Positions 1,274-17,757 of a stretch of 17,757 bases of DNA are shown one piece after another. Within the stretch, counting starts at the first letter, position 1. Each line of letters begins with the position of its first letter. Below the pieces are notes generated by a model, which saw nothing but the letters and a program-made list of their open reading frames with translations, searched no databases and had not been told where the DNA came from. The stretch comes from Nitrospira defluvii (GTDB lineage: Bacteria; Nitrospirota; Nitrospiria; Nitrospirales; Nitrospiraceae), in the NCBI GenBank assembly GCA_016199015.1, contig JACQHN010000029.1:1-17757 (forward strand). Direction: 5' to 3'. The position numbers and the translations under genes are program-made.

Positions 1274-3229
1274 CTAGAAAAACGCCTGTACGGTGAACAA
1301 CACGTCGTTGTCATGATCGCGGTGATTGTATTCCAGCCGCAATGCCCAATTTTGAGCGACCGTGTAGCGTTGCGCTACCGACCACCTGAAGTCGTCTGAC
1401 GTCTCGCCCAAGGCATACCGCAAATAGGTCGTCGCGGCTAACATCCGCCACCGTTCAGCGAGATCGGCATAGAAGCCCGCCGATGCGCCACCGCCAACGC
1501 GATGACGCTCCTCGTAGGCCCGGCTATAGTTCCCCTCCACCTCGGCAAACGCAAAGAACACTTCACGACGAAACACATGCGTTTCAGTCGCCGCGCCGAT
1601 GCCACCGCTGACATTCCAATTGCTGCACAGCTCGCAGGCTCCCTGCCTGACGGTCTGCATCCCCAGATTCAACTTCCACGAGGGGGCATGGAACAGCGAA
1701 TCCATGGGCGAGATCGACATGACATTGGCCAACGTCACCCGTTCAACTCGCGTCTGATCGGCTCGGTTATAGTGGCGCAGGCTAATCGAGCCGAGTTCAA
1801 TCTGTGCGTCCGGCGTGTATCCCGGCTCAGGGTCGAGCACATCATGGTAAGCCGTCCGCATAGCCACTTCTTCGAACGTGTCGTTATTGCGCCAGCCGCC
1901 GCCTACACTCACACGGGATGTCTTGTGGCCCAATTCCGGCTGCATCGCGAAGGGGGGAATCGCGAGATCTTCAGACGGAATCCGCAACAGACTCCGAGCT
2001 GTCAAAATCTGCCTGTTACGGTCTCTTGAAACGGCAGCCAGGTCCTCGTCACGCTCGCCTGTATAACGCACAAAGTCGGAGGCCACATCCAAGACGAATG
2101 CTTGGCGAGACAGCGGCAGAGCACGGACCTCCTCCGACTGACTGGCCGATGCGTCTCGCACCACCCGTTTCACCAACGCATGTTCCGGTTGGGATAAGTG
2201 TTCGCGCTTGCGGCGAATGAGCGTCACCCGAGACGGACGGAATGCGATATCGCTCACCAATCCTGGCTGGGCCGCGAGCAGACGGACCGTGTCGGCAGGA
2301 ACGGTCCAGAACAGAAATTGGTCGGTCAGGTGCAGTGAGGGATCCGCATATTCCAACAACGACAACAAGTGGTACGAGCAATTTTCTTTGAAGAAGAAAT
2401 AATCAAACGAGGCGTTCCCAAGTTCCCAGGCATGCATGAGGAGCCGACGAATCTGGTCCCCACTAAAATTCAGCCGATACTCCCAGATGTCACGGTTCTC
2501 GATGTCCCGATACTCCTGCACCTTGAGATAATAGGGAATAGTTGAGAAGTATCCACGGTAGCCGCCGAAAATGCCGCGTATGGGGTAATCCAGATTCGAG
2601 CCTGCCGGGACATCGGCTGCAAAATTTATAGTGTAGGCAAGCAGACGGGTTTGCGCCGTCTGCCCCCGTTGGTCGATCCGAAGAAAGGTATGTCCAAACA
2701 TCGACGCCGGATTGTTCATGAACGCAGAGGGGAAAATGAGTGAGATCGATTGAGCTTCGAATCCGGCAAACCATTGCTCAAACCGGTCACATTTCATCGG
2801 CGTGAGACGACTTTCGTCAAAGGAAAGCTGCTCCGTCAACCACGCGTACCGTGCGACGAATGCACATTGAGTCGGCTGCTGTGAACGACCGACGAGGTCA
2901 GGCGAAAAAAATTGTGTGAGTGTGGCGGCAAGCTCCGCGTCGGGATCGGTCTTCCCATCTGGAGACATGAAGAAACCGGGATCGTCCTGCTCACTGGTGT
3001 AGCCGCCAAATACGTTGGCTCGATAGTGGAGCAGGAGATGCCACTCGCGCTGATCCGCCAATCGAGCCTGGTGGGCCCGCTGAATAAGATCCTGCAGATA
3101 GGGCGTGATGGATTCTCCCGCCTCGACAGAGGTCGTGAGGAGAAGAACGGCCAGAAGGGCAAACCAGATATGCACGATCGAACGCCGAGAAAAAAACAGG
3201 GCTCCGATCAGTGACCGGAGCCCTATCAT
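1274..3229 (-). CDS. DUF4105 / Lnb-type periplasmic protein with C-terminal barrel-like region
   Basis: Codes for 651 residues from the ATG at 3229. Residues 1-37 form a long signal peptide with an RR pair, then IWFALLAVLLLTT, cleaved after VEA. The DUF4105 domain (about residues 60-310) is clear: PASMFGHTFLRID (His180), LLAYTINFAA, the Gly-rich IFGGYRGYFS, IWEYRLNFSG and FFFKENCSYHLLSLLEYADP (Cys284, His287). The His-then-NC order resembles the permuted NlpC/P60 fold of LRAT-type acyltransferases. DUF4105 members include Lnb, reported as a lipoprotein N-acyltransferase in Bacteroides, so an acyl-transfer role is possible but inferred. From about residue 420 the sequence alternates like a beta-barrel and ends in VQAFF. 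Other possible starts are a TTG at 3268 and a GTG at 3175; the GTG would lie just beyond the terminator embedded at 3190-3224. No good ribosome site is visible at any of them. Confidence 0.85.
   Translation of the reverse strand: MIGLRSLIGALFFSRRSIVHIWFALLAVLLLTTSVEAGESITPYLQDLIQRAHQARLADQREWHLLLHYRANVFGGYTSEQDDPGFFMSPDGKTDPDAELAATLTQFFSPDLVGRSQQPTQCAFVARYAWLTEQLSFDESRLTPMKCDRFEQWFAGFEAQSISLIFPSAFMNNPASMFGHTFLRIDQRGQTAQTRLLAYTINFAADVPAGSNLDYPIRGIFGGYRGYFSTIPYYLKVQEYRDIENRDIWEYRLNFSGDQIRRLLMHAWELGNASFDYFFFKENCSYHLLSLLEYADPSLHLTDQFLFWTVPADTVRLLAAQPGLVSDIAFRPSRVTLIRRKREHLSQPEHALVKRVVRDASASQSEEVRALPLSRQAFVLDVASDFVRYTGERDEDLAAVSRDRNRQILTARSLLRIPSEDLAIPPFAMQPELGHKTSRVSVGGGWRNNDTFEEVAMRTAYHDVLDPEPGYTPDAQIELGSISLRHYNRADQTRVERVTLANVMSISPMDSLFHAPSWKLNLGMQTVRQGACELCSNWNVSGGIGAATETHVFRREVFFAFAEVEGNYSRAYEERHRVGGGASAGFYADLAERWRMLAATTYLRYALGETSDDFRWSVAQRYTVAQNWALRLEYNHRDHDNDVLFTVQAFF
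3190..3224 (-). terminator. Intrinsic terminator of the DUF3015 gene, inside the DUF4105 reading frame
   Basis: A perfect 9-bp GC-rich inverted repeat (3198-3206 with 3216-3224, AGGGCTCCG/CGGAGCCCT, 9-base loop) is followed on the minus strand by G and seven T residues (3196-3190). It sits 22 bp after the DUF3015 stop codon. It also falls within codons 2-14 of the DUF4105 gene if that gene starts at the ATG at 3229. Confidence 0.85.
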
Positions 3230-3245
3230 GAGTGTGAACAAAAAC

Positions 3246-3755
3246 TTAGCGGCTGACGGCCTGCGCAAGGACAGGACTCTTGCCGACCGCGTCGTTCAAG
3301 GCCTTCACTAATGCGACCGAGGAGGTTTCACCCGCCTCGACCAGGGCCGTATAGCGCTCTTGGGTCAATGCAAAGAACGCAGCATGCTGTTCCGCGGGAA
3401 TCCCCATGAGGGTGGCCAATGAAGCCAAATGCTCGCCCTTGCCCTGAGCCATTTCTTGGGACAAATTGTCAAAGTTCAAATGGGCAAACATATTCGTTTT
3501 CTGATCTGCCATCACCTGTCCGTCATTCGTGCAACCCGATGTTCCGGAGCTGATGCCGAATGTGCCGCTCCCGAAGGTCCCGTTGGTGGTGGCCATCATG
3601 ACTTGCGGCGCGATGTTCTTCTGGTTCTTATAATCCGCCCAAGCCAACTTCCCAAGACCACAGCCTGGTCCCGTATCGGGATTCGCTGCCATGGCCAATC
3701 CGGCTTGTGACACCACCGCGACGGCGCCCAACACGACGAATAGTTTTCTTAGCAT
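3246..3755 (-). CDS. DUF3015 family secreted protein
   Basis: Codes for 169 residues. MLRKLFVVLGAVAVVSQAGLAMA is a signal peptide cleaved after about residue 23. The mature protein shows the DUF3015 signature: PGCGLGKLAW, VMMATTNGTFGSGTFGISSGTSGC with a second Cys, then a helical second half with QMAQGKGEHLASLA and a run of conserved-looking Ala/Gln residues. The two Cys (in GPGCGLG and TSGC) could form a disulfide in the periplasm. The start at 3755 is fixed by a very strong ribosome site, GGAGGAGG, 4 bases upstream and by the signal peptide; the open frame continuing upstream to 4073 is not coding. It has its own promoter and terminator. The family's function is unknown to me. Confidence 0.9.
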   Translation of the reverse strand: MLRKLFVVLGAVAVVSQAGLAMAANPDTGPGCGLGKLAWADYKNQKNIAPQVMMATTNGTFGSGTFGISSGTSGCTNDGQVMADQKTNMFAHLNFDNLSQEMAQGKGEHLASLATLMGIPAEQHAAFFALTQERYTALVEAGETSSVALVKALNDAVGKSPVLAQAVSR

Positions 3756-8461: not shown

Positions 8462-8797
8462 ATGCGACGAGTCGTGATTGAAGAACTCACGCCGGGCATG
8501 ATCTTAGCCAAACCCGTCACGAACGCAGCCGGGCTCGTGGTGCTTCCCTCCGGCGCCGAACTGGATGAGGCAACCCTCCCCCGCTTGCAGCGCCTGGGCC
8601 TGGCCTCCGTGTTTATCGAGGGGGAGGCAGGCGACGCCGGTGGCAAAACCCTCGCCGAACTGGAAGCCGAACTCGAACACCGCTTCCGACTTGTCAGCAA
8701 CGACCCGCTTCAACGCCAACTTCTGGAGGCGATCCGGCTCCACCTTCGCACCACGCATGGGGTCAGCGAGAGTCCGGGCCCGACGCCGATATCATGA
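8462..8797 (+). CDS. Stand-alone HD-GYP-type N-terminal (DUF3391-like) domain protein
   Basis: Codes for 111 residues. The sequence VVIEELTPGMILAKPV, GLVVLPSGAELDEATLPRL and GLASVFIEGE is the pattern seen at the N terminus of many HD-GYP phosphodiesterases and of related c-di-GMP signalling proteins. Here it exists as a separate small protein. Residues 62-98 (GKTLAELEAELEHRF onward) form a likely helical or coiled-coil tail. The start is the ATG at 8462, where the family pattern begins; the frame open to 8399 adds nothing. The ribosome site is weak. The stop codon overlaps the HDOD gene start by four bases (ATGA), so translation of the two is coupled. It probably works as a partner or sensor of the HDOD protein; that is an inference from context. 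Confidence 0.75.
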   Translation: MRRVVIEELTPGMILAKPVTNAAGLVVLPSGAELDEATLPRLQRLGLASVFIEGEAGDAGGKTLAELEAELEHRFRLVSNDPLQRQLLEAIRLHLRTTHGVSESPGPTPIS

Positions 8798-9630
8798 GTC
8801 CTTCAGCTAAGGTTGATCTCCATCGACGGATCGAGCAAGTCGGCGAGTTGCCGACCCTGCCCCATGTCGTTCAAAAGCTCGCTTCAATGATCGGCCGCAC
8901 CAACGTCTCGGCGGAAGAAATCGGCACCCTGATCGAGAAGGATCAAGTGCTGTCCGCCAAAGTCTTGCGGCTGGCTAATTCGCCGTTTTACGGATTCCCC
9001 TCGCGCATCGCCTCGGTCGCCCATGCCGTGGTAGTGCTGGGGTTGAACGTGGTCAAGGGCCTCACATTATGCGCGACCGCGTTCGACATGATGAAAAACG
9101 CCGGCATGAACGAGCTCTGGCGTCACTCACTGGGCGTCGCCATCACCGCACATATCCTCGGCACGAAAGCCGCGCTGAAGAATCCAGAAGAAGTCTTTGT
9201 CGCCGGCCTCCTGCATGACATCGGCAAAGTGGTGCTCTATGTCAAATGGCCCGATGTCGGCCGGCAGATTACGGCAGCTACTCGCAAGACCTCCCGTTCT
9301 TTGATAGAAAACGAACAAGAGCTGTTCGAAGTGACCCATGCCGATGTGGGGGGATGGCTCGCAACCGCCTGGCATCTTCCGACCAGTCTGCGCGAACCTA
9401 TTCTCTATCATCACAACCCGACTGCCGCCCTGGACGCGCCGCTCCAAGCCGCGATCGTGCATGTGGCCGATGTGCTGGTCAAGGGCCTGGCCTGTGGCAA
9501 CCCCGGCGACGATCTGGTACCGCCGCTTTCCCGTCAGGCCTGGGATCTGGTGGGCCTGGACGCGCAGAGTCTCGCCCAGTGCCTCGCCAAGGCCGAGGAA
9601 GAATTCCAGACCATCGATGACTACCTATGA
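8794..9630 (+). CDS. HDOD domain signalling protein
   Basis: Codes for 278 residues, cytoplasmic. The HDOD region starts at residue 17: ELPTLPHVVQKLASMI, then EKDQVLSAKVLRLANSPFYGFPSRIASVAHAVVVLGLNVVKGL, a classic HDOD signature. Unlike many HDOD proteins, it keeps residues that look like HD-superfamily metal ligands: His111 (WRHS), HDIGK (His141, Asp142), His182 (THADVGG), His206-His207 (ILYHHNP) and Asp226. Enzymatic activity is therefore not excluded, although HDOD proteins are generally regarded as non-catalytic regulators of motility, virulence and stress signalling. The gene sits between the isolated N-terminal domain and the diguanylate cyclase, overlapping each by four bases, so the three products probably form one signalling unit. 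Confidence 0.9.
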   Translation: MSPSAKVDLHRRIEQVGELPTLPHVVQKLASMIGRTNVSAEEIGTLIEKDQVLSAKVLRLANSPFYGFPSRIASVAHAVVVLGLNVVKGLTLCATAFDMMKNAGMNELWRHSLGVAITAHILGTKAALKNPEEVFVAGLLHDIGKVVLYVKWPDVGRQITAATRKTSRSLIENEQELFEVTHADVGGWLATAWHLPTSLREPILYHHNPTAALDAPLQAAIVHVADVLVKGLACGNPGDDLVPPLSRQAWDLVGLDAQSLAQCLAKAEEEFQTIDDYL

Positions 9631-10604
9631 GCGGCCTTCCTTCCAACCGACGCATCCTATTGCTGCACAACGACCCAACCGAAATCGAGCGGCTGACCGC
9701 TGGACTGAGTCGATCTGGATTCACTGTCGTTGCGGCAGATGCCGGCCGCCTGGCGATGCACGAACTGGTGCATGATCCGCCCTGTTTGGTATTGGCCGCA
9801 GAGGGTACGAACGGACGTTCGGCAGACACCCTCGCCCGAGAGTTGCGCGCCGATCCCTTCCTGGGACGGCTCCCGCTGATCATCCTGGTTCGGGATATCC
9901 GGATCAACGATTTGGATTGGGCGACGCTCGGCGTGGATGACTATATCGCCGTCCCCTACCGACCTGACGAAGTCCCGCAACGGGTGCGCCTCTGCCTCAG
10001 CCGGCTTGAACGCTCGTTGGACGCCAATCCCTTGACCAGGCTCCCAGGCAACAGCACGATTCTTCATGAAACGACCACGCGTATCGACAGCCGAGCGCCC
10101 TTTGCCTTAGCCTACCTGGATCTCGACAACTTCAAGTCCTTCAACGACCGTTACGGCTATGCCCGCGGCGATGAGGTGCTGGTGGTTACGTGCCGGATCC
10201 TGACGACCGTCGTCAGCGAACTGGCCGGCACCGATGGGTTTGTCGGCCATGTGGGCGGAGACGATTTTGTATTCATGAGCACGCCCGCCACCATTGAGGC
10301 CATCTGCCAAACCCTCATCAAGCGTTTTGATTTGGTGATCCCGGACTTTTACGATCCGGAAGATCGCCAGAAGGGGTTCATCGATTCCGTCGACCGGCGG
10401 GGCAATCACGAGCGGTTTCCCATCATGAGCCTGTCCATCGCCGTGGTGACCAACGAACATCGCACCATTTCTCACCCCGGCGATGTCAGCAAGATTGCTT
10501 CCGAACTGAAGAAGGTCGCCAAGAGCCGGCCCGGCAGCGTCTACGTGAAAGATCACCGGGGGACGGATACACCAGAGTCAGCATTCGAAATCAGTAAGAT
10601 CTAA
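9627..10604 (+). CDS. Diguanylate cyclase with degenerate receiver domain
   Basis: Codes for 325 residues. Residues 8-125 have the receiver fold pattern (RRILLLHNDP, LPLIILVRD, VDDYIAVPYRPDEV). The phosphorylation residues are gone: the acidic pair is His14-Asn15, the acceptor Asp position is Ala58 (LVLAAEG) and the switch Lys is Val109, so it cannot be a normal phospho-receiver. Residues 135-310 are a GGDEF domain: DANPLTRLPG, LAYLDLDNFKSFND (metal-binding Asp), YARGDEVL and the active-site GGDDF (210-214). The catalytic motif looks functional. The product-inhibition RxxD site, expected at residues 201-204, is absent (GTDG). An insertion of about 20 residues (YDPEDRQKGF) precedes the last strands. 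The gene starts in an ATGA overlap with the HDOD gene and is the last of the operon. Confidence 0.9.
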   Translation: MSGLPSNRRILLLHNDPTEIERLTAGLSRSGFTVVAADAGRLAMHELVHDPPCLVLAAEGTNGRSADTLARELRADPFLGRLPLIILVRDIRINDLDWATLGVDDYIAVPYRPDEVPQRVRLCLSRLERSLDANPLTRLPGNSTILHETTTRIDSRAPFALAYLDLDNFKSFNDRYGYARGDEVLVVTCRILTTVVSELAGTDGFVGHVGGDDFVFMSTPATIEAICQTLIKRFDLVIPDFYDPEDRQKGFIDSVDRRGNHERFPIMSLSIAVVTNEHRTISHPGDVSKIASELKKVAKSRPGSVYVKDHRGTDTPESAFEISKI

Positions 10605-10952: not shown

Positions 10953-11471
10953 CTACTCCGACCGTAGTTCAGGAGAGGACGCGCCGGGTGCCTGTCCGCC
11001 GCCATTCCCGCCATACTGACGGCGAAGCTCTCGCCGATACGCGCGGCGCTCTTCGGGCGACATACTCTTAAATTTTTCCCGCAACGCCTGACGCTGTTCG
11101 GGGGGCAGGGACCTGAACCACCGTCTGGCATCGCGCACAGACTCGCGTTGTTCAGGCGGAAGCTGACGAAATTGCTGAAACCGTTCGCGCAGTTGCTGCT
11201 GTTGCTCCGGCGGAAGTGTCCGCCATTGTTTGAACCGCTGCTTTGCCTCTTGACGCTCCTCAGGCGTCATCGTCCCCCATTGCTGGGCCCCGTTGCGTAA
11301 TCGCTCCTGTTTGCGCGGCGGCAACTGATCCCAGGTGTCGCTGAAACGCTGCAACAGTTGTTGTTCGCCGGGACTCAATTGGCTCCATGGCACCCCTGTT
11401 GGCTCGCCTTGGGCCCAGGCCGACGCCACCCCACATGCCAGCACGATCATGCAAATACGTAACGCTCTCAT
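10953..11471 (-). CDS. DUF3106 family secreted protein with 18-residue repeats
   Basis: Codes for 172 residues. MRALRICMIVLACGVASAWA is a signal peptide. The rest is built from seven units of 18 residues, starting at about residue 29 and ending near 152, each with the shape W/F-x2-L-P-P-E-x-R-x2-L-R-x-R-F-x2: WSQLSPGEQQLLQRFSDT, WDQLPPRKQERLRNGAQQ, WRTLPPEQQQQLRERFQQ, FRSLPPEQRQALREKFKS and so on. This is the DUF3106 pattern and predicts a helical, strongly basic rod in the periplasm. Its start overlaps the stop of the preceding gene by four bases (ATGA), and it is the last gene of the sigma-factor operon. DUF3106 genes near ECF sigma factors are known in other bacteria. The mechanism is unknown. 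Confidence 0.85.
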   Translation of the reverse strand: MRALRICMIVLACGVASAWAQGEPTGVPWSQLSPGEQQLLQRFSDTWDQLPPRKQERLRNGAQQWGTMTPEERQEAKQRFKQWRTLPPEQQQQLRERFQQFRQLPPEQRESVRDARRWFRSLPPEQRQALREKFKSMSPEERRAYRRELRRQYGGNGGGQAPGASSPELRSE

Positions 11472-11809: not shown

Positions 11810-12131
11810 AGAATTCGAGGTCTTCCGAGAGTTCGATGTTCTCGGATGATTGCATCAATTCAAGATCTTCGAGCAGCGGGAGGTGGGAATGGTTTCCCCC
11901 GATGGATGGCCATATCCATAGCGTGAGAGCCAATGCGACCACCGAGGCCAGGGCCGCTCCACCGGCCCACCTGAGCCAGGGCCGCCGGGGTGATGCATGG
12001 TCCAATACATTCAGCCGCGCGCGCTGCACCAGCAAGATGGTCTTTTGATCAAGATCGTGCACACTCTGATCCAGAAGACGCTTCGCTGCCGCCGCTAACG
12101 GGTCCGATTGTGGGTTCGACCATTCACTCAT
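11772..12131 (-). CDS. Anti-sigma-like membrane protein (DUF3619-like)
   Basis: Codes for 119 residues from the ATG at 12131, which overlaps the sigma-factor stop by four bases (ATGA) and has AGGAG 10 bases upstream. A cytoplasmic N-terminal half (LAAAAKRLLDQSVHDLDQKTILLVQRARLNVL) is followed by one transmembrane helix (WAGGAALASVVALALTLWIW) and an acidic tail ending LELSEDLEFYDWL-like (in full ENIELSEDLEFYDWLADGP). The layout, a short helical domain, one membrane span and an acidic extracytoplasmic tail placed directly after an ECF sigma gene, fits an anti-sigma or sigma-modulating protein. It lacks the ZAS zinc motif (HxxxCxxC). The DUF3619 link is from memory of similar operons and is tentative. 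Confidence 0.75.
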   Translation of the reverse strand: MSEWSNPQSDPLAAAAKRLLDQSVHDLDQKTILLVQRARLNVLDHASPRRPWLRWAGGAALASVVALALTLWIWPSIGGNHSHLPLLEDLELMQSSENIELSEDLEFYDWLADGPATTG

Positions 12132-12745
12132 GGCCAATGCTCTCCTAATCGTTTTCTCAAAACCTGTAACGCACGAAAGAGATGCGTCTTGACGCTGCCC
12201 TCCGAGCAGCCCATCGCGTGCGCTGTTTGCGCCACGCCCAGCTCTTCCCAGATGCGCAGGAGAAACGCCTGCTGTTGCCGCAACGGGAGGGCGCGCAATG
12301 CGACATCGAGTGCCGCACAGGCGCGCTTGCGCTTCAGGTCTTCATCGGGCGCCACGGCGACTCGGTTGGGAACTTGCTCCAGCGGATCTTCTCGTTCTTC
12401 TTCATCCTGCGGGCTATGGAAAAATTCTCGCAGACGGTTCCGCACCTTCGTCCGGCGGTACCAATCGCGAATACGACTCTGCAGAATACAGTGAAAAAGC
12501 GGTCCCCACTCCCCTTCAGTCCGATCGCCATAATTCTGTACGAGCTTCAACATGGCATCCTGCACGAGATCGAGCGCCTCGTCCTCATTCCCCGTGGCAA
12601 TCTGTGCCATGCGGAATGCCCGCCGCTCAATCCCTGCTAAGAACCGATCCAATGCCTGGGTTCGATCCAGAGATCCCACCCTCTCACCCAGGCAAAGGCT
12701 GCCGGGTTGCCCATCTACACCGATAGGAGAATGCCAGCCGTTCAT
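12128..12745 (-). CDS. ECF-type sigma-70 factor
   Basis: Codes for 205 residues. Sigma region 2 spans about residues 28-110: LDRFLAGIERRAFRMAQIA, then EDEALDLVQDAMLKLVQNY and RIRDWYRRTKVRNRLREFF. An acidic linker follows (DEEEREDPLEQ). Region 4 covers about 145-200: ALRALPLRQQQAFLLRIWEE, LGVAQTAHAMGCSEGSVKTHLFRALQVLRKRL, a canonical helix-turn-helix. It would direct RNA polymerase to an ECF-type regulon. It heads a four-gene operon with ATGA overlaps at two of the three junctions. The start at 12745 has only a modest site (TAGGCGG). The first 25 residues are not conserved-looking, so the true start could be internal, although no better start codon was found. Confidence 0.9.
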   Translation of the reverse strand: MNGWHSPIGVDGQPGSLCLGERVGSLDRTQALDRFLAGIERRAFRMAQIATGNEDEALDLVQDAMLKLVQNYGDRTEGEWGPLFHCILQSRIRDWYRRTKVRNRLREFFHSPQDEEEREDPLEQVPNRVAVAPDEDLKRKRACAALDVALRALPLRQQQAFLLRIWEELGVAQTAHAMGCSEGSVKTHLFRALQVLRKRLGEHWP

Positions 12746-13197: not shown

Positions 13198-16100
13198 TTA
13201 CTTGCTGTCAGTCAAATCGGCCGTCCGTTTGCCGCCGGCCCATGCGGTCGGGGGAATCTGCACGACCACGTCGAATCGGTCCTGCGCTTCATTGTCCTTC
13301 AGGTCCCGCCCCACACTATAGAAGACACCTTTCTTCATGTTGACCAGCATCGGAAAACCTGTGAAGGGGTCATAGAGCCCTTGCCCAGCCTTGGCTACTC
13401 TGGTGAGCAGATCTTGCTCAGGTGGAGCCCGGCGCAGCCAGGCTTGCAGGGACACCAGACGCAGGCGCGCATCGGTTTCCAAAACTCGACCGGCATACGT
13501 CTCCCAAGTCGGGAGCGGGTCGATCCCGACGAGGCTCTCGATAGGATTCATCAACAGGTCCGTCAGACCATACGGAGGCGTGCGCACAAACTGGGACTGT
13601 TTCGGCAAGTCGGCATACCGGCCTTCCGCCGCCGCCTTGCCCACGGCTTCATAGTATTGTGCATAGGCATTGAATCGACGCTGCTTCGGCAACGGCAGGG
13701 CGGCGGCGACCGAGCCATAGAACGGACGGGCATCGGCCGTGTCATGGTTCACCGTCTCCTCCAGCGTCTTCGTGGCTAACACGAATTGGCTCTGCATCGG
13801 CCAACGAACCGATTGCTCAGCTTGGTCGAGCGGCCGTGCAAGCTTGGCGAGCCGACTGATCAGTCGGTCATCGAGGTCCGTCCGTAGCAACAGCCCGCTT
13901 ACCACTGCGATGTCGTCATTGAGGGCGTCACTGGCCAGCATTTTTACCGGCATGGTCTTGGCCTGCCCGAATACTGTCCGCCAGGCGGTGAGATCGGTTT
14001 CGAGCCGCGCGACCCCCGCATCCACATCCTGCGCAAATCCCTCCGCGACATACAAGCGATGAGCATAGAGAATCACGCCACAGTTCGGACTGACCGGCTG
14101 CCCAAACCCCCAATCTTCGAAGGGTTTGGTGAGCCACTGCCGGTACCGGCCCATGGCGACCCCAGCCTGGGAGGCCCAGGACTTCACCCCGGCCGCCTCG
14201 ATCCGCATCTGCGCCGCAGGATCGACCCTCTTCAGCCACTTGCCCGTCACCTCAGCCGACGCACCCTGTTGAGTGCCTGAGCCATTGCCTTCTCCCGTCA
14301 GACAGGTGAGGGTGACTGCACGATCGGCCTCCTCGGCTCGTCGGTCGATCCCAGCCTGCACAGGATCCTGTGTCGGTGCGGCACTGAAGCCAAGCAGGAG
14401 GAAATACCCGTTTTTCTGAGAATCCTGGAGCGTGTGTTGTGGCACCGAGGTCATAGTTCGATAGGCTGGAGTGGGTTGTTCTTCAAGGATCAGCCAGGTC
14501 AATGCGATTGCACCCACGGAGCCGGCGAGGATCGCTAATGTGAGCCCGATCAGCGCCACCACCAGGACAATCAGCGATCGCGTCGTCGAGACCCCCGCGC
14601 CGATGAGGGAGGTCACGGTCCGACCGATGCGATGCCACGCCTGCCCGACTGCCGGCTTGCTCGGTTTTGAACGAGGGGCAGGCTGCTCCCCATGCAGGGG
14701 CGTGGAGTCGTCCGATCGACCAACAGGGCGGTCCGTCACAAGAGGGGTCGCTTCTGGTCGCTCACCCACCGGCGGAGCGACAGGAGGCACAGGCTCATCA
14801 GGGATCGTCGTCGGATGACTGGCCCCAACGGAAGCGACATCTGCGGGCCTTTTCAGCCAGCGTGTCAGCATGTTCCCCGTAGAAGCGCTCGGGGTCGGCT
14901 TCGACGAGGAGTCATCCCACAGAATTCGAAGGCCACCGTCTACGGAAGCCTCGGGGGCTGCCGCCACCGCTGGTGCGGCCGCTTGTACGTCAGCAGTAGG
15001 CTCCGCTAATACCTCCGAAACCTCTGCTGGCACAACCACTTCAGCGACCTGCACGGATTCAACCGAAGCCAGGTTCGTTTCGTCCGAGCGAACAGCGACA
15101 GGCGCCCCCGTGGATTGAGCCTGAATGCCTTCCGACACCGGTAATGCCGGTTCATTCGAAATTTCCTCACCTGGAACAGCCGATTCGCGCAACTGGGGTG
15201 CTCCGGCATCACAGCCAGCGACATCAGGCATCGATGCGTGACCTTGCGACAACAACGGCGACCTCTCAGGCTCCGACACCGGTGCAACCTCTTCCTCCAC
15301 ACGAACGATTTCGGAAAGCAGTGCAGTCGGTTCAGCCTGCACGACCGGCTGATCGGCGATGACAGAAGGCACAACCGAAGGAACCGCCGCTTCGACGACC
15401 GTTTCGGGAGTAGTGAGTATTGTTGGCTCCTGACCAGCAACTTGAGCGACCGGCTGTTCCACCAGAGATGGTGGATTCGAAGGGAACGCCTCTGCCGATT
15501 CAGAGACAGGGGCCTGGATATCCTCGACAACGTCCTGTTCGAGAGTCAACGGCGGCATCTCTAGAGATGCCCCTACGACCGCTTCCGTCAACGATTCGGC
15601 AGGCACTGCGCGAGGCTCGTCCGGTTCTGGTGCCGCAATCGCCTCACTCCCAGCCAACCACAACGGGCGCTCTATCGGCAGGTCGATCGTTGATTCAGCT
15701 GGTGGTTCGGGCTCGAATACTGCAGCCAGTTCCGGCGCTTCAACCGGTTCGACCGGAGCATCCTGAGAAAGAATACGGAACCCCGGCATCGAAAGTGATT
15801 CAACGTGACCGAGACTGTCGCCGACCGTCTCGTCTGCGAGGGCCCCGGTAGTGGGCACCGAGTCATGCATTTCCTCCGCAACAGGCATGACCACAGTGGA
15901 ATCTTGAGCTCCCCCCACAACATCGGCAGAGACTGGTCCGAATTCAGGCTCAGGGTCTTGTCGAGGAATCGCCACGTCCTCGACTTCGATCTGTTCCCAA
16001 GGCATGGGTGCCGAAAGCGGTGGCGAATCACTGACGAGGCCCGCGAAAGAATCCGACGCCGGAGCCGCGAACGACAGCCACTCTGTCTCTGAGGGATCAG

Positions 16101-17757
16101 CAGGTGGCGTGACCGTCGTCGCCGTCTCTTCAGGCACAGCGATATCGTTGGCGGCTTCGCTTTCTGCCCTCGGCATGGTCTGCGCGGGAGCAGGAGCGGC
16201 TTGCATCGCGGTGACCGCCGCGAGAATATCCTCCCAAGAGAGCCCTGATGAGGAGATAAAGGAGGGGACGGGTGGAATGGGCGGATCCGCCGCTGTCCCT
16301 GCATCGAGCACGTGATCCGTCACGGAGACTTCCTGTCCCTTCTCCGCTTCCGCTACTTCAGGCTCAATCTTTACCTCGGCCTGTGAAAAGACTGCACCGG
16401 GCGTCTCTTCAACCTGGTCCCAGGGCATTGGGGCCGGGCTCATCGGCGCTTCTGCAATCGGGTGGGCGCTGGCGTTCCGAAGCACTTCAATCGTTGGAGA
16501 CGCCGCCTCAAGGACAGGTGGCGGTGGTAGCTCAGCCTCCCCGGATAGCGCAGAAACCACCTCGGCCCCCGTCGACCCGTCACTGTCTGTCACCGGCGAG
16601 CTGGCGGGGGCAACGTCGTCGATCTGCTCCAAAGGCATAGAAGCCGGACCTGCCATACTCTCTGCAATTGGGTGGAGGCTAGGTTCTGGCGGCACCTCGA
16701 TGGTGGATTCCGGGACCTCGGCGATCGGCGGGGCGGGAAGCTCGGCTTCCACGGACAGCGTTGAGGCCACCTCAGAGGATGTTGGAACCTCACTGGCCGC
16801 TACCGGTGAAATCGCAGGGGCAGCGTCTTCGATCTGATCCCAGGGCATGGGAGCTGGGCTCATCGGTGCTTCTGCAATCGGATGGCTGCTACCCTGTGCC
16901 AGCACTTCGATTGTGGGCTGCGGGTCCTCGGCGACCGGCATGGCAGGAAGCGCTGAATCGGCGACCCTCGGCTCACTCTGACCTGATACCTGGACTGGTT
17001 CTGTCGTTGACGCCACTGACAACGTCGAGGGCTCATGGTGAAGCTGGAGCTCCGACGCCGTGGGTAAATCAGGCACCTGCGCGGCCGGCGTCCGATCAGA
17101 AGTGTCGTCCTGTCGTAACGCCTCTGTGACCGACTCCACCGAAGCGAGTGGAGCAACCGAGGCCATCGTTTCGATCGAGTCTCCGGCTGTTGGGGCTTGT
17201 GCCTCTGCTGAGATCGCCGCATCAGTCGGCGTTGACTCTATTTGCTCCCATGGCATGGCAACCGCGGCAGCAGAGTCGGCAGGCGACTCTGCAATCGGTG
17301 AGGGATAAGGAGGCTCGCTCCCCGAATCGCCCACTGCGGGCTGAGGAGTCGCCTGCAACATCTGCCCCGTGACGGTATCGAACATGGCCGCAAAGCGGAA
17401 GGCGACCGGACTTCCGGGAGCAAGGGAGCGAATTTTGCCAAAGAGCTCGCTGGCTCGGTTCGGATGGTCGGTGTCCGGATCTTCCAATAACACCTCAACC
17501 GCCTTGCCGTACTCTGCCACCGCCGCCATGACGTCGCCCTTTTCCTCGTACACATGCCCCAGCATTTCCAAAAATGGCACACAGCGTGGTCCTGCCGTCA
17601 GATATTCCCGCAAGAGCGATTCCGCCAGCCAATAGTCCTGCCGCTCCATCGCCTCGCGAGCCAGGGATTCGAACGCTGTTCTCGCACTCATCAGACTTCC
17701 GAGTCGCAGGTGGAGGGTGGCGAAGAGGCGCCGGGCTTCGGCATTGAGCGGATCGAG
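13198..17757 (-). CDS. Giant TPR / disordered repeat / single-span membrane protein (5' end outside window)
   Basis: At least 1519 residues. The frame is open to the right edge: the 22 codons before the Met at 17691 read LDPLNAEARRLFATLHLRLG, itself a TPR helix, so the gene starts beyond the window. Numbering from that Met, residues 5-110 are TPR-like helices (WLAESLLREYL, MLGHVYEEKGDVMAAVAEYGKAV). Residues 115-1010 are a low-complexity Pro/Ala/Glu/Ser/Val linker. It carries the motif MPW-[ED]-Q-[IV]-E at 146, 282, 422 and 563, a variant MPLEQID at 352, and a 70-residue tandem repeat (259-328, 329-398, partial 399-435). Residues 1038-1067 are one transmembrane helix, with basic residues before it, so the N-terminal side is cytoplasmic. 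Residues 1075-1497 are an extracytoplasmic alpha-helical domain (YFLLLGFSAAPTQDP, WGFGQPVSPNCG) that I cannot assign. FimV-like scaffolds share the outline, without visible homology. Confidence 0.85.
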   Translation of the reverse strand, partial: LDPLNAEARRLFATLHLRLGSLMSARTAFESLAREAMERQDYWLAESLLREYLTAGPRCVPFLEMLGHVYEEKGDVMAAVAEYGKAVEVLLEDPDTDHPNRASELFGKIRSLAPGSPVAFRFAAMFDTVTGQMLQATPQPAVGDSGSEPPYPSPIAESPADSAAAVAMPWEQIESTPTDAAISAEAQAPTAGDSIETMASVAPLASVESVTEALRQDDTSDRTPAAQVPDLPTASELQLHHEPSTLSVASTTEPVQVSGQSEPRVADSALPAMPVAEDPQPTIEVLAQGSSHPIAEAPMSPAPMPWDQIEDAAPAISPVAASEVPTSSEVASTLSVEAELPAPPIAEVPESTIEVPPEPSLHPIAESMAGPASMPLEQIDDVAPASSPVTDSDGSTGAEVVSALSGEAELPPPPVLEAASPTIEVLRNASAHPIAEAPMSPAPMPWDQVEETPGAVFSQAEVKIEPEVAEAEKGQEVSVTDHVLDAGTAADPPIPPVPSFISSSGLSWEDILAAVTAMQAAPAPAQTMPRAESEAANDIAVPEETATTVTPPADPSETEWLSFAAPASDSFAGLVSDSPPLSAPMPWEQIEVEDVAIPRQDPEPEFGPVSADVVGGAQDSTVVMPVAEEMHDSVPTTGALADETVGDSLGHVESLSMPGFRILSQDAPVEPVEAPELAAVFEPEPPAESTIDLPIERPLWLAGSEAIAAPEPDEPRAVPAESLTEAVVGASLEMPPLTLEQDVVEDIQAPVSESAEAFPSNPPSLVEQPVAQVAGQEPTILTTPETVVEAAVPSVVPSVIADQPVVQAEPTALLSEIVRVEEEVAPVSEPERSPLLSQGHASMPDVAGCDAGAPQLRESAVPGEEISNEPALPVSEGIQAQSTGAPVAVRSDETNLASVESVQVAEVVVPAEVSEVLAEPTADVQAAAPAVAAAPEASVDGGLRILWDDSSSKPTPSASTGNMLTRWLKRPADVASVGASHPTTIPDEPVPPVAPPVGERPEATPLVTDRPVGRSDDSTPLHGEQPAPRSKPSKPAVGQAWHRIGRTVTSLIGAGVSTTRSLIVLVVALIGLTLAILAGSVGAIALTWLILEEQPTPAYRTMTSVPQHTLQDSQKNGYFLLLGFSAAPTQDPVQAGIDRRAEEADRAVTLTCLTGEGNGSGTQQGASAEVTGKWLKRVDPAAQMRIEAAGVKSWASQAGVAMGRYRQWLTKPFEDWGFGQPVSPNCGVILYAHRLYVAEGFAQDVDAGVARLETDLTAWRTVFGQAKTMPVKMLASDALNDDIAVVSGLLLRTDLDDRLISRLAKLARPLDQAEQSVRWPMQSQFVLATKTLEETVNHDTADARPFYGSVAAALPLPKQRRFNAYAQYYEAVGKAAAEGRYADLPKQSQFVRTPPYGLTDLLMNPIESLVGIDPLPTWETYAGRVLETDARLRLVSLQAWLRRAPPEQDLLTRVAKAGQGLYDPFTGFPMLVNMKKGVFYSVGRDLKDNEAQDRFDVVVQIPPTAWAGGKRTADLTDSK
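16390..16917. repeat. 210-bp tandem repeat inside the giant gene
   Basis: Two complete in-frame units of 210 bp (16917-16708 and 16707-16498) and a partial third (16497 to about 16390) encode 70-residue blocks beginning [PS]TIEV, followed by HPIAE, PMPW-[ED]-Q and, in the complete units, EAELP. The nucleotide copies are diverged but clearly aligned, for example CATCGGNGCTTCTGCAATCG at 16861 and 16441. This is a protein-coding duplication, not a mobile element. Confidence 0.8.

Follow-up and report, generated by a model that had tools for sequence, protein, structure and literature searches.

The 17,757-nucleotide stretch of Nitrospira defluvii DNA analysed here (the window) ends in a gene for a giant protein that is, on balance, probably a tethered single-pass scaffold, with short motifs in its long linker that would dock a soluble partner. 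The original prediction, made from the window alone, read the protein as TPR helices, a linker of roughly 900 residues, one membrane helix and a domain of about 420 residues outside, and translation, structure model and hydropathy agree on this order. Within the genus the linker motifs are held under strong purifying selection in a chain that otherwise drifts rapidly, and the C-terminal domain is modelled confidently as a fold without a match in the PDB.

Nitrospira are major nitrite oxidisers, and to our knowledge little is known of their cell biology. Here, we describe the parts of the giant protein, the conservation of its motifs, its likeness to known bacterial scaffolds and its probable origin, and we weigh the proposed role against other readings.

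Results

The giant ORF

The window spans an entire contig (G000:C43), and the source genome is 67% complete. The reading frame of the giant is uninterrupted and open at the contig end (Table 1). L039, the nearest relative, shares 84% identity with it, and the open frame of L039 extends 61 residues beyond the window's first residue on the N-terminal side; by this comparison the contig end cuts off about 61 N-terminal residues. In most orthologues a GTG codon lies three codons past an upstream stop and is followed by a basic tail (RSDKK...), and the start codon is probably the GTG of 'GYT-VRSDKK' in L039. A chance ORF is ruled out by the orthologues, the close relative L039 and the pattern of selection.

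Table 1. Features of the giant protein; positions are those of the window, residues those of the fragment encoded in it.
Feature	Position	Strand	Evidence
Whole ORF, 1519 aa and stop codon, 5' end cut by contig end	13198..17757	-	ORF translation, orthologues
TPR head, residues 1-139 of fragment, first helices off contig	17341..17757	-	profile and PDB matches, model, pN/pS
Acidic Pro/Ala/Glu/Val linker, predicted disordered, about residues 140-1040	14638..17340	-	composition, pN/pS, model
Motif A copy 1, MPWEQIE, residues 168-174	17236..17256	-	sequence, DNA pattern, copy count
Motif A copy 2, MPWDQIE, residues 304-310	16828..16848	-	sequence, DNA pattern, copy count
Motif A copy 3, decayed variant MPLEQID, residues 374-380; MPWDQVD in L039	16618..16638	-	sequence, copy count
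Motif A copy 4, MPWDQVE, residues 444-450	16408..16428	-	sequence, DNA pattern, pN/pS, copy count
Motif A copy 5, MPWEQIE, residues 585-591	15985..16005	-	sequence, DNA pattern, pN/pS, copy count
Motif C, SSGLSWEDILAAVTAMQ, residues 503-519, predicted short helix	16201..16251	-	pN/pS 0.133 over 503-521; pLDDT 76 in L039 model
Motif B copy, GFRILSQD, residues 659-666, same type as FRLVD of TPR paralogue	15760..15783	-	sequence, alignment
Motif B copy GLRILWDD, then basic/aromatic GNMLTRWLKRP, residues 942-971	14845..14934	-	sequence, alignment
Single membrane helix, about residues 1061-1091	14485..14577	-	hydropathy; helix 2-42 of structure model
Exported C-terminal domain (predicted), residues 1092-1519, mostly alpha-helical, C-terminal beta hairpin	13201..14484	-	searches, model
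Cys1152, partner of Cys1226 in proposed disulfide	14302..14304	-	cysteine counts
Cys1226, partner of Cys1152 in proposed disulfide	14080..14082	-	cysteine counts

The TPR head

The Pfam model TPR_16 scores 21 bits on the fragment of the head in the window, below its cut-off of 32.7. When the L039 head, which is complete, is compared with the PDB, TPR chains of both designed and natural origin are found (best E 4.5e-13); NCBIfam TPR models also match the head, and structure prediction bears out the TPR reading, with about 165 residues of L039 modelled as TPR helix pairs at pLDDT 92-97. Judged by these matches and the model, the head is a member of the TPR superfamily. Over residues 1-130 its pN/pS is 0.060 (24 genus rows), and the basic N-tail that precedes it carries a charge of +9 and has no signal peptide.

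Motif A is conserved within a drifting linker

The linker consists of about 900 residues rich in A, P, E and V, has a net charge of -126 over 835 residues in L039, and lies mostly below pLDDT 50 in the model of that protein, where blocks of higher confidence (50, 50, 56 and 44-53) coincide with copies 1, 2, 4 and 5 of motif A, MPW[ED]Q[IV]E, and no peak (39) is seen at copy 3. All the copies that had been read from the window, four MPW-[ED]-Q-[IV]-E motifs (at 168, 304, 444 and 585) and the variant MPLEQID (at 374), are present. The core M-P-W-[ED]-Q-[IVM], a pattern set post hoc, has a chance expectation of about 3e-5 in a linker of such composition.

Selection was assessed pairwise in an alignment of the window's protein with 23 full-length genus orthologues; it leaves out L063 (1240 aa), L064-L067 and the genes that are split in G010 and G017. 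The five MPW motifs have a pN/pS of 0.097 versus 0.711 for the rest of the linker and 0.22 for the C-terminal domain, ratios that are rough because pS is high (0.56-0.77). Synonymous codons differ within the MPW motifs among the genus rows. The MPW motifs had been named before this test; the remaining conserved islands were chosen by looking at this alignment, which biases their pN/pS values downwards.

At the DNA level, a pattern for MPW[ED]Q[VIM][ED] has 99 matches in the 29 genus genomes, all 99 of them inside the giant gene when compared by eye with gene coordinates, and the reversed control pattern has none in these genomes. By regular expression, 24 of the 25 full-length genus proteins contain 4-5 copies and L063 contains one. 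The ORF varies from 1497 to 1643 aa among the 24 full-length genus members other than L063. Motifs 2-4 sit in duplicated modules of ~70 residues, recognisable by TIEV at 282, 352 and 422 and by PIAE at 293, 363 and 433, and in most genus proteins these middle copies are 68-74 residues apart, with spacings of 132-158 on either side. Outside the motifs the modules have diverged throughout, and no DNA-level tandem repeats are left in the gene. The regular spacing described in the original prediction comes, for motifs 2-4, from the duplicated modules and does not extend into a linker-wide array.

Motif A is kept less uniformly beyond the genus. Head and C-terminal domain are in frame in 43 proteins of the wider family (L107 was excluded because its TPR is out of frame with its C-terminal part); 14 are of the window's-genus type and all have 4-5 copies, and of the other 29 there are 22 with 1-4 copies and seven with none. 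The loose pattern used for this count also matches a TPR helix (VPFLEML type), and such matches were subtracted by hand. Of 60 family genomes, 26 contain the exact DNA pattern; at least one of the matches, in G278, falls outside the gene, and the control pattern matches once among the 60, in G326. The outcome named in the original prediction as refuting it, motifs lost from a linker that drifts in length, is not seen inside the genus, whereas other genera have 0-4 copies. On these comparisons, motif A is a conserved short linear motif under purifying selection within a fast-drifting linker; it is gene-specific within the genus, where it is strongly kept, and more loosely kept in the family.

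Motifs B and C and a soluble TPR paralogue

Four further hydrophobic peptides had been singled out in the linker, LSWEDIL, EWLSFAA, GFRILSQD and GLRILWDD, which start at residues 506, 559, 659 and 942 of the fragment. LSWEDIL and GLRILWDD are conserved. The first belongs to the predicted SWEDIL helix of motif C, SSGLSWEDILAAVTAMQ, to which FSWNTVFDG or a like peptide corresponds in many members from other genera; the second opens the island GLRILWDD...RWLKRP, with a pN/pS of 0.296 (24 genus rows). Letter-for-letter conservation of GFRILSQ is moderate (0.60). EWLSFAA was dropped as a motif, its conservation being middling: mean identity is 0.38, a value equalled or exceeded by 41% of linker 7-mers.

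GFRILSQD and GLRILWDD are both copies of motif B, [FL][RK][IL] followed by a hydrophobic and usually an acidic residue, a pattern written after the sequences had been seen. Of 28 giant linkers, 23 could be delimited by the script; 18 of these contain it once or twice, versus 0.01-0.07 expected by shuffling, and it is absent from the other five.

Motif B is shared with a soluble TPR paralogue of about 640 residues, which has a Pro/Ala-rich linker with a single FRLVD motif and a TPR region that aligns with the head of the giant at 36-46% identity in most genus genomes. Sixteen of 18 paralogues match motif B, 15 at the aligned site and one (L073) inside the TPR, and shuffles of those 15 linkers yielded it in 0-2 of 500 each. 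MPW is found in none of the 18 proteins. The first repeats of the paralogue match the NCBIfam SgmX model NF052243 (E 5.8e-38; 130.8 bits versus a cut-off of 1800), a model that is not among the NCBIfam matches of the giant's own head. In the source genome the paralogue (L059) lies on another contig, C75, and at one locus (L078) it adjoins an lptF/lptG pair.

The C-terminal domain and membrane topology

The C-terminal domain comprises 424-428 residues, according to the boundary chosen. A 470-residue piece that includes the membrane helix was modelled by AlphaFold2 with a mean pLDDT of 84.8 and a pTM of 0.84 as a largely helical fold that has a short beta hairpin close to its C-terminus. The family had been called unassigned, and a profile search of the domain leaves it so: no Pfam or NCBIfam model matches, the best PDB sequence has an E of 0.41, and Foldseek searches with the model gave best E values of 0.12 in the PDB and 0.41 in BFVD, none at 0.001 or better. 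As modelled, the domain is a confident fold without a PDB match. Pfam, NCBIfam, PDB sequence and fold searches likewise returned no enzyme family that would explain the whole protein.

The same domain also occurs in single-domain relatives, where it follows a basic N-end and one hydrophobic helix. Cys1152 and Cys1226 occur together in all 77 giant rows and in three of four contig-cut rows; among 24 single-domain rows, 23 have neither, one has the first only and none has both. Counted over 91 distinct sequences, both cysteines are found in 66, neither in 24 and the first only in one. Sequences shorter than 350 residues were excluded from these counts, and the rows are kin, with the giants in one clade, so the counts represent few events. 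The pair marks the giant clade, in which neither cysteine is missing singly, and the simplest reading is a Cys1152-Cys1226 disulfide in the periplasm, which we propose. The signal-anchored single-domain relatives, the cysteine pair of the giant clade and the basic N-tail without a signal peptide support, albeit indirectly, a topology with the N-terminus in and the C-terminus out.

Discussion

Likeness to known scaffolds

HubP and FimV have a periplasmic LysM domain, one membrane helix, a long acidic cytoplasmic region and a client-binding TPR domain (PMC12918733). The giant shares with them a periplasmic domain, a single membrane helix, a long, acidic, unstructured cytoplasmic region (which carries repeats in HubP) and a TPR domain, but its order is reversed, the TPR being N-terminal and the exported domain C-terminal, and in its linker a tryptophan motif takes the place of acidic repeats. 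Pfam and NCBIfam scans found no LysM in the giant or its C-terminal domain, and NCBIfam scans found no FimV model in it, its C-terminus being the exported domain and not the FimV TPR domain. FimV_core (TIGR03505) is found in none of 60 family genomes, but also in none of 14 control genomes.

PodJ of Caulobacter combines cytoplasmic coiled coils and a disordered region with a membrane anchor and periplasmic domains; it is cut, and its disordered region serves to recruit a client (PMC8980812). Both proteins have an N-terminal cytoplasmic part with a disordered region, a membrane anchor and a C-terminal periplasmic part. They differ in that PodJ has its coiled coils inside and TPR and peptidoglycan-binding domains outside, whereas the TPR of the giant would lie inside; Pfam scans of the giant found no peptidoglycan-binding model. 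SgmX, a type IV pilus regulator of Myxococcus, is cytoplasmic and without a membrane helix (PMC7519303), unlike the giant, and the likeness lies in the soluble paralogue, which matches the SgmX model over its first repeats, far below the cut-off. The scaffold domain of RNase E is a disordered chain with short linear motifs whose copy number has been changed by duplication (PMC11964227), as in the linker of the giant, but it has no TPR head, no exported domain, a membrane-targeting sequence only, and other motifs.

By the tests made, the giant is a family relative of neither HubP/FimV nor PodJ. The original description of a new type of transmembrane organiser is nevertheless too strong, because HubP/FimV and PodJ, in the texts cited, already have that layout. 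Literature searches with the strings MPWEQ, MPWDQ or SWEDIL returned only old texts that matched part of another word, and the giant is not described among the matches listed for Nitrospira TPR scaffolds. Among the matches listed, it is undescribed in the literature searched, and it is better regarded as a new arrangement of a known scaffold layout.

Proposed role and alternatives

We favour a reading in which the giant would be a Nitrospiraceae scaffold that crosses the inner membrane once, its N-terminus inside and its C-terminus outside, with its TPR head and unstructured linker in the cytoplasm. A soluble partner would dock on the linker, which offers a few kinds of putative docking peptide and chiefly MPW[ED]Q[IV]E in 4-5 copies, and a second partner would be bound by the head. 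The exported domain would have been acquired once, from signal-anchored envelope proteins of one family, and would fix or position this assembly in the envelope. Partner binding by the motifs, the identity of that partner and whatever the exported domain attaches to are points that we infer. A bolder version, which we consider unlikely, makes the giant a Nitrospiraceae-specific organiser that arose by fusion of a TPR-and-linker module to an exported domain of new fold, with 4-5 identical sites for a single cytosolic partner and a second docking peptide (FRIL/FRLVD) in common with the soluble TPR protein. If true, giant and soluble protein would make up a single scaffold network that spans the inner membrane in these nitrite oxidisers.

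The main rival, which we judge unlikely, is self-docking: the receptor of the motifs would be the TPR head of the same molecule, of neighbouring copies or of the paralogue, giving a fold-back or a membrane-bound cluster. It would fit the occurrence of motif B both in the giant and in a soluble protein whose TPR is homologous to the giant's head, and the finding that constraint is strongest on the head and the motifs; the absence of motif A from the paralogue speaks against it, as does, more weakly, a single-chain model of head and linker, in which the motifs adopt no confident fold beyond local peaks of 44-56.

Less probable still is a linker that serves mainly as a spacer, its conserved peptides serving protein handling, such as chaperone or protease recognition or timed cleavage. 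The drift in length and the changes in copy number would suit a spacer, and PodJ, in the text cited above, is a precedent for the cutting of a scaffold; near-invariant MPW[ED]Q[IV] in 4-5 copies, together with two more types of motif, exceeds what a cleavage tag would need. The periplasm, too, has proteins with long low-complexity linkers, and head and linker could in principle lie outside with the C-terminal domain in the cytoplasm, but the three observations that point to N-in/C-out make this reverse topology highly improbable. Finally, that the motifs are neutral residues of repeated low-complexity sequence, a notion to which the position of copies 2-4 within duplicated modules lends something, is ruled out in the genus, or close to it, by modules that have diverged except at the motifs and by the gap between motif and linker pN/pS given above.

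Distribution, origin and gene neighbourhood

An orthologue of the giant is present in 27 of 29 genus genomes, and this retention of a scaffold gene with a private putative docking motif makes the peptide usable as bait. The two exceptions, G002 and G025, have no giant gene, no match to motif A, no close copy of the ECF sigma factor and no AIM24; since these neighbours are also missing, the locus is probably missing from the assemblies. Two small-genome relatives, G034 and G159 (loci L204 and L203), retain AIM24 and M48 without the giant gene, which was lost or never there, so the gene is dispensable in some lineages.

A contig scan of the genome collection gave 92 relatives, of which 80 (79 loci) were kept; every named one is recorded as Nitrospira, Nitrospiraceae or Nitrospirae/Nitrospirota, and Nitrospira moscoviensis and N. 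defluvii are among them. In a sample of the phylum the C-terminal domain occurs in 77 of 295 genomes, 75 of them in the window's family, and the two genomes of another family hold a very distant single domain (E 1.7e-11 and 1.5e-7). A plasmid collection searched with the distant relative L178 gave no match. In a tree of C-terminal domains of at least 330 residues, 50 giants and three contig-cut rows form one clade (100/100) and all 24 single-domain rows fall outside it. Formally the label requires three changes on the tree because of the contig-cut rows; the tree is consistent with an origin of the giant by one fusion, and the family would then illustrate how a new envelope-spanning scaffold arises through such an event.

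In 24 of 24 genus loci (L039-L058, L060-L063) an ECF sigma factor gene lies 3' of the giant on the same strand and a HAD-type phosphatase gene lies upstream on the other. Outside the genus the giant is often followed instead by amidohydrolase, AIM24 and M48 genes. The neighbourhood looks like inherited order and not a functional operon. In the window the sigma factor gene (12128-12745, minus strand; NCBIfam PRK09047 above cut-off) has a DUF3106 gene just downstream (10953-11471, minus strand), and this pair is conserved after the giant gene in the genus. At the three single-domain loci examined (L068, L070 and L072) the copy lies in a locus with TonB-receptor-like genes, and two of these loci also contain ABC transporter genes. 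Elsewhere in the window, positions 8794-10604 (plus strand) encode an HDOD protein and then a GGDEF protein with a weak receiver match, likely a signalling pair, and positions 1274-3268 (minus strand) encode a membrane-type protein that matches Lnb_N, DUF7840 and DUF7843, all three above their Pfam cut-offs.
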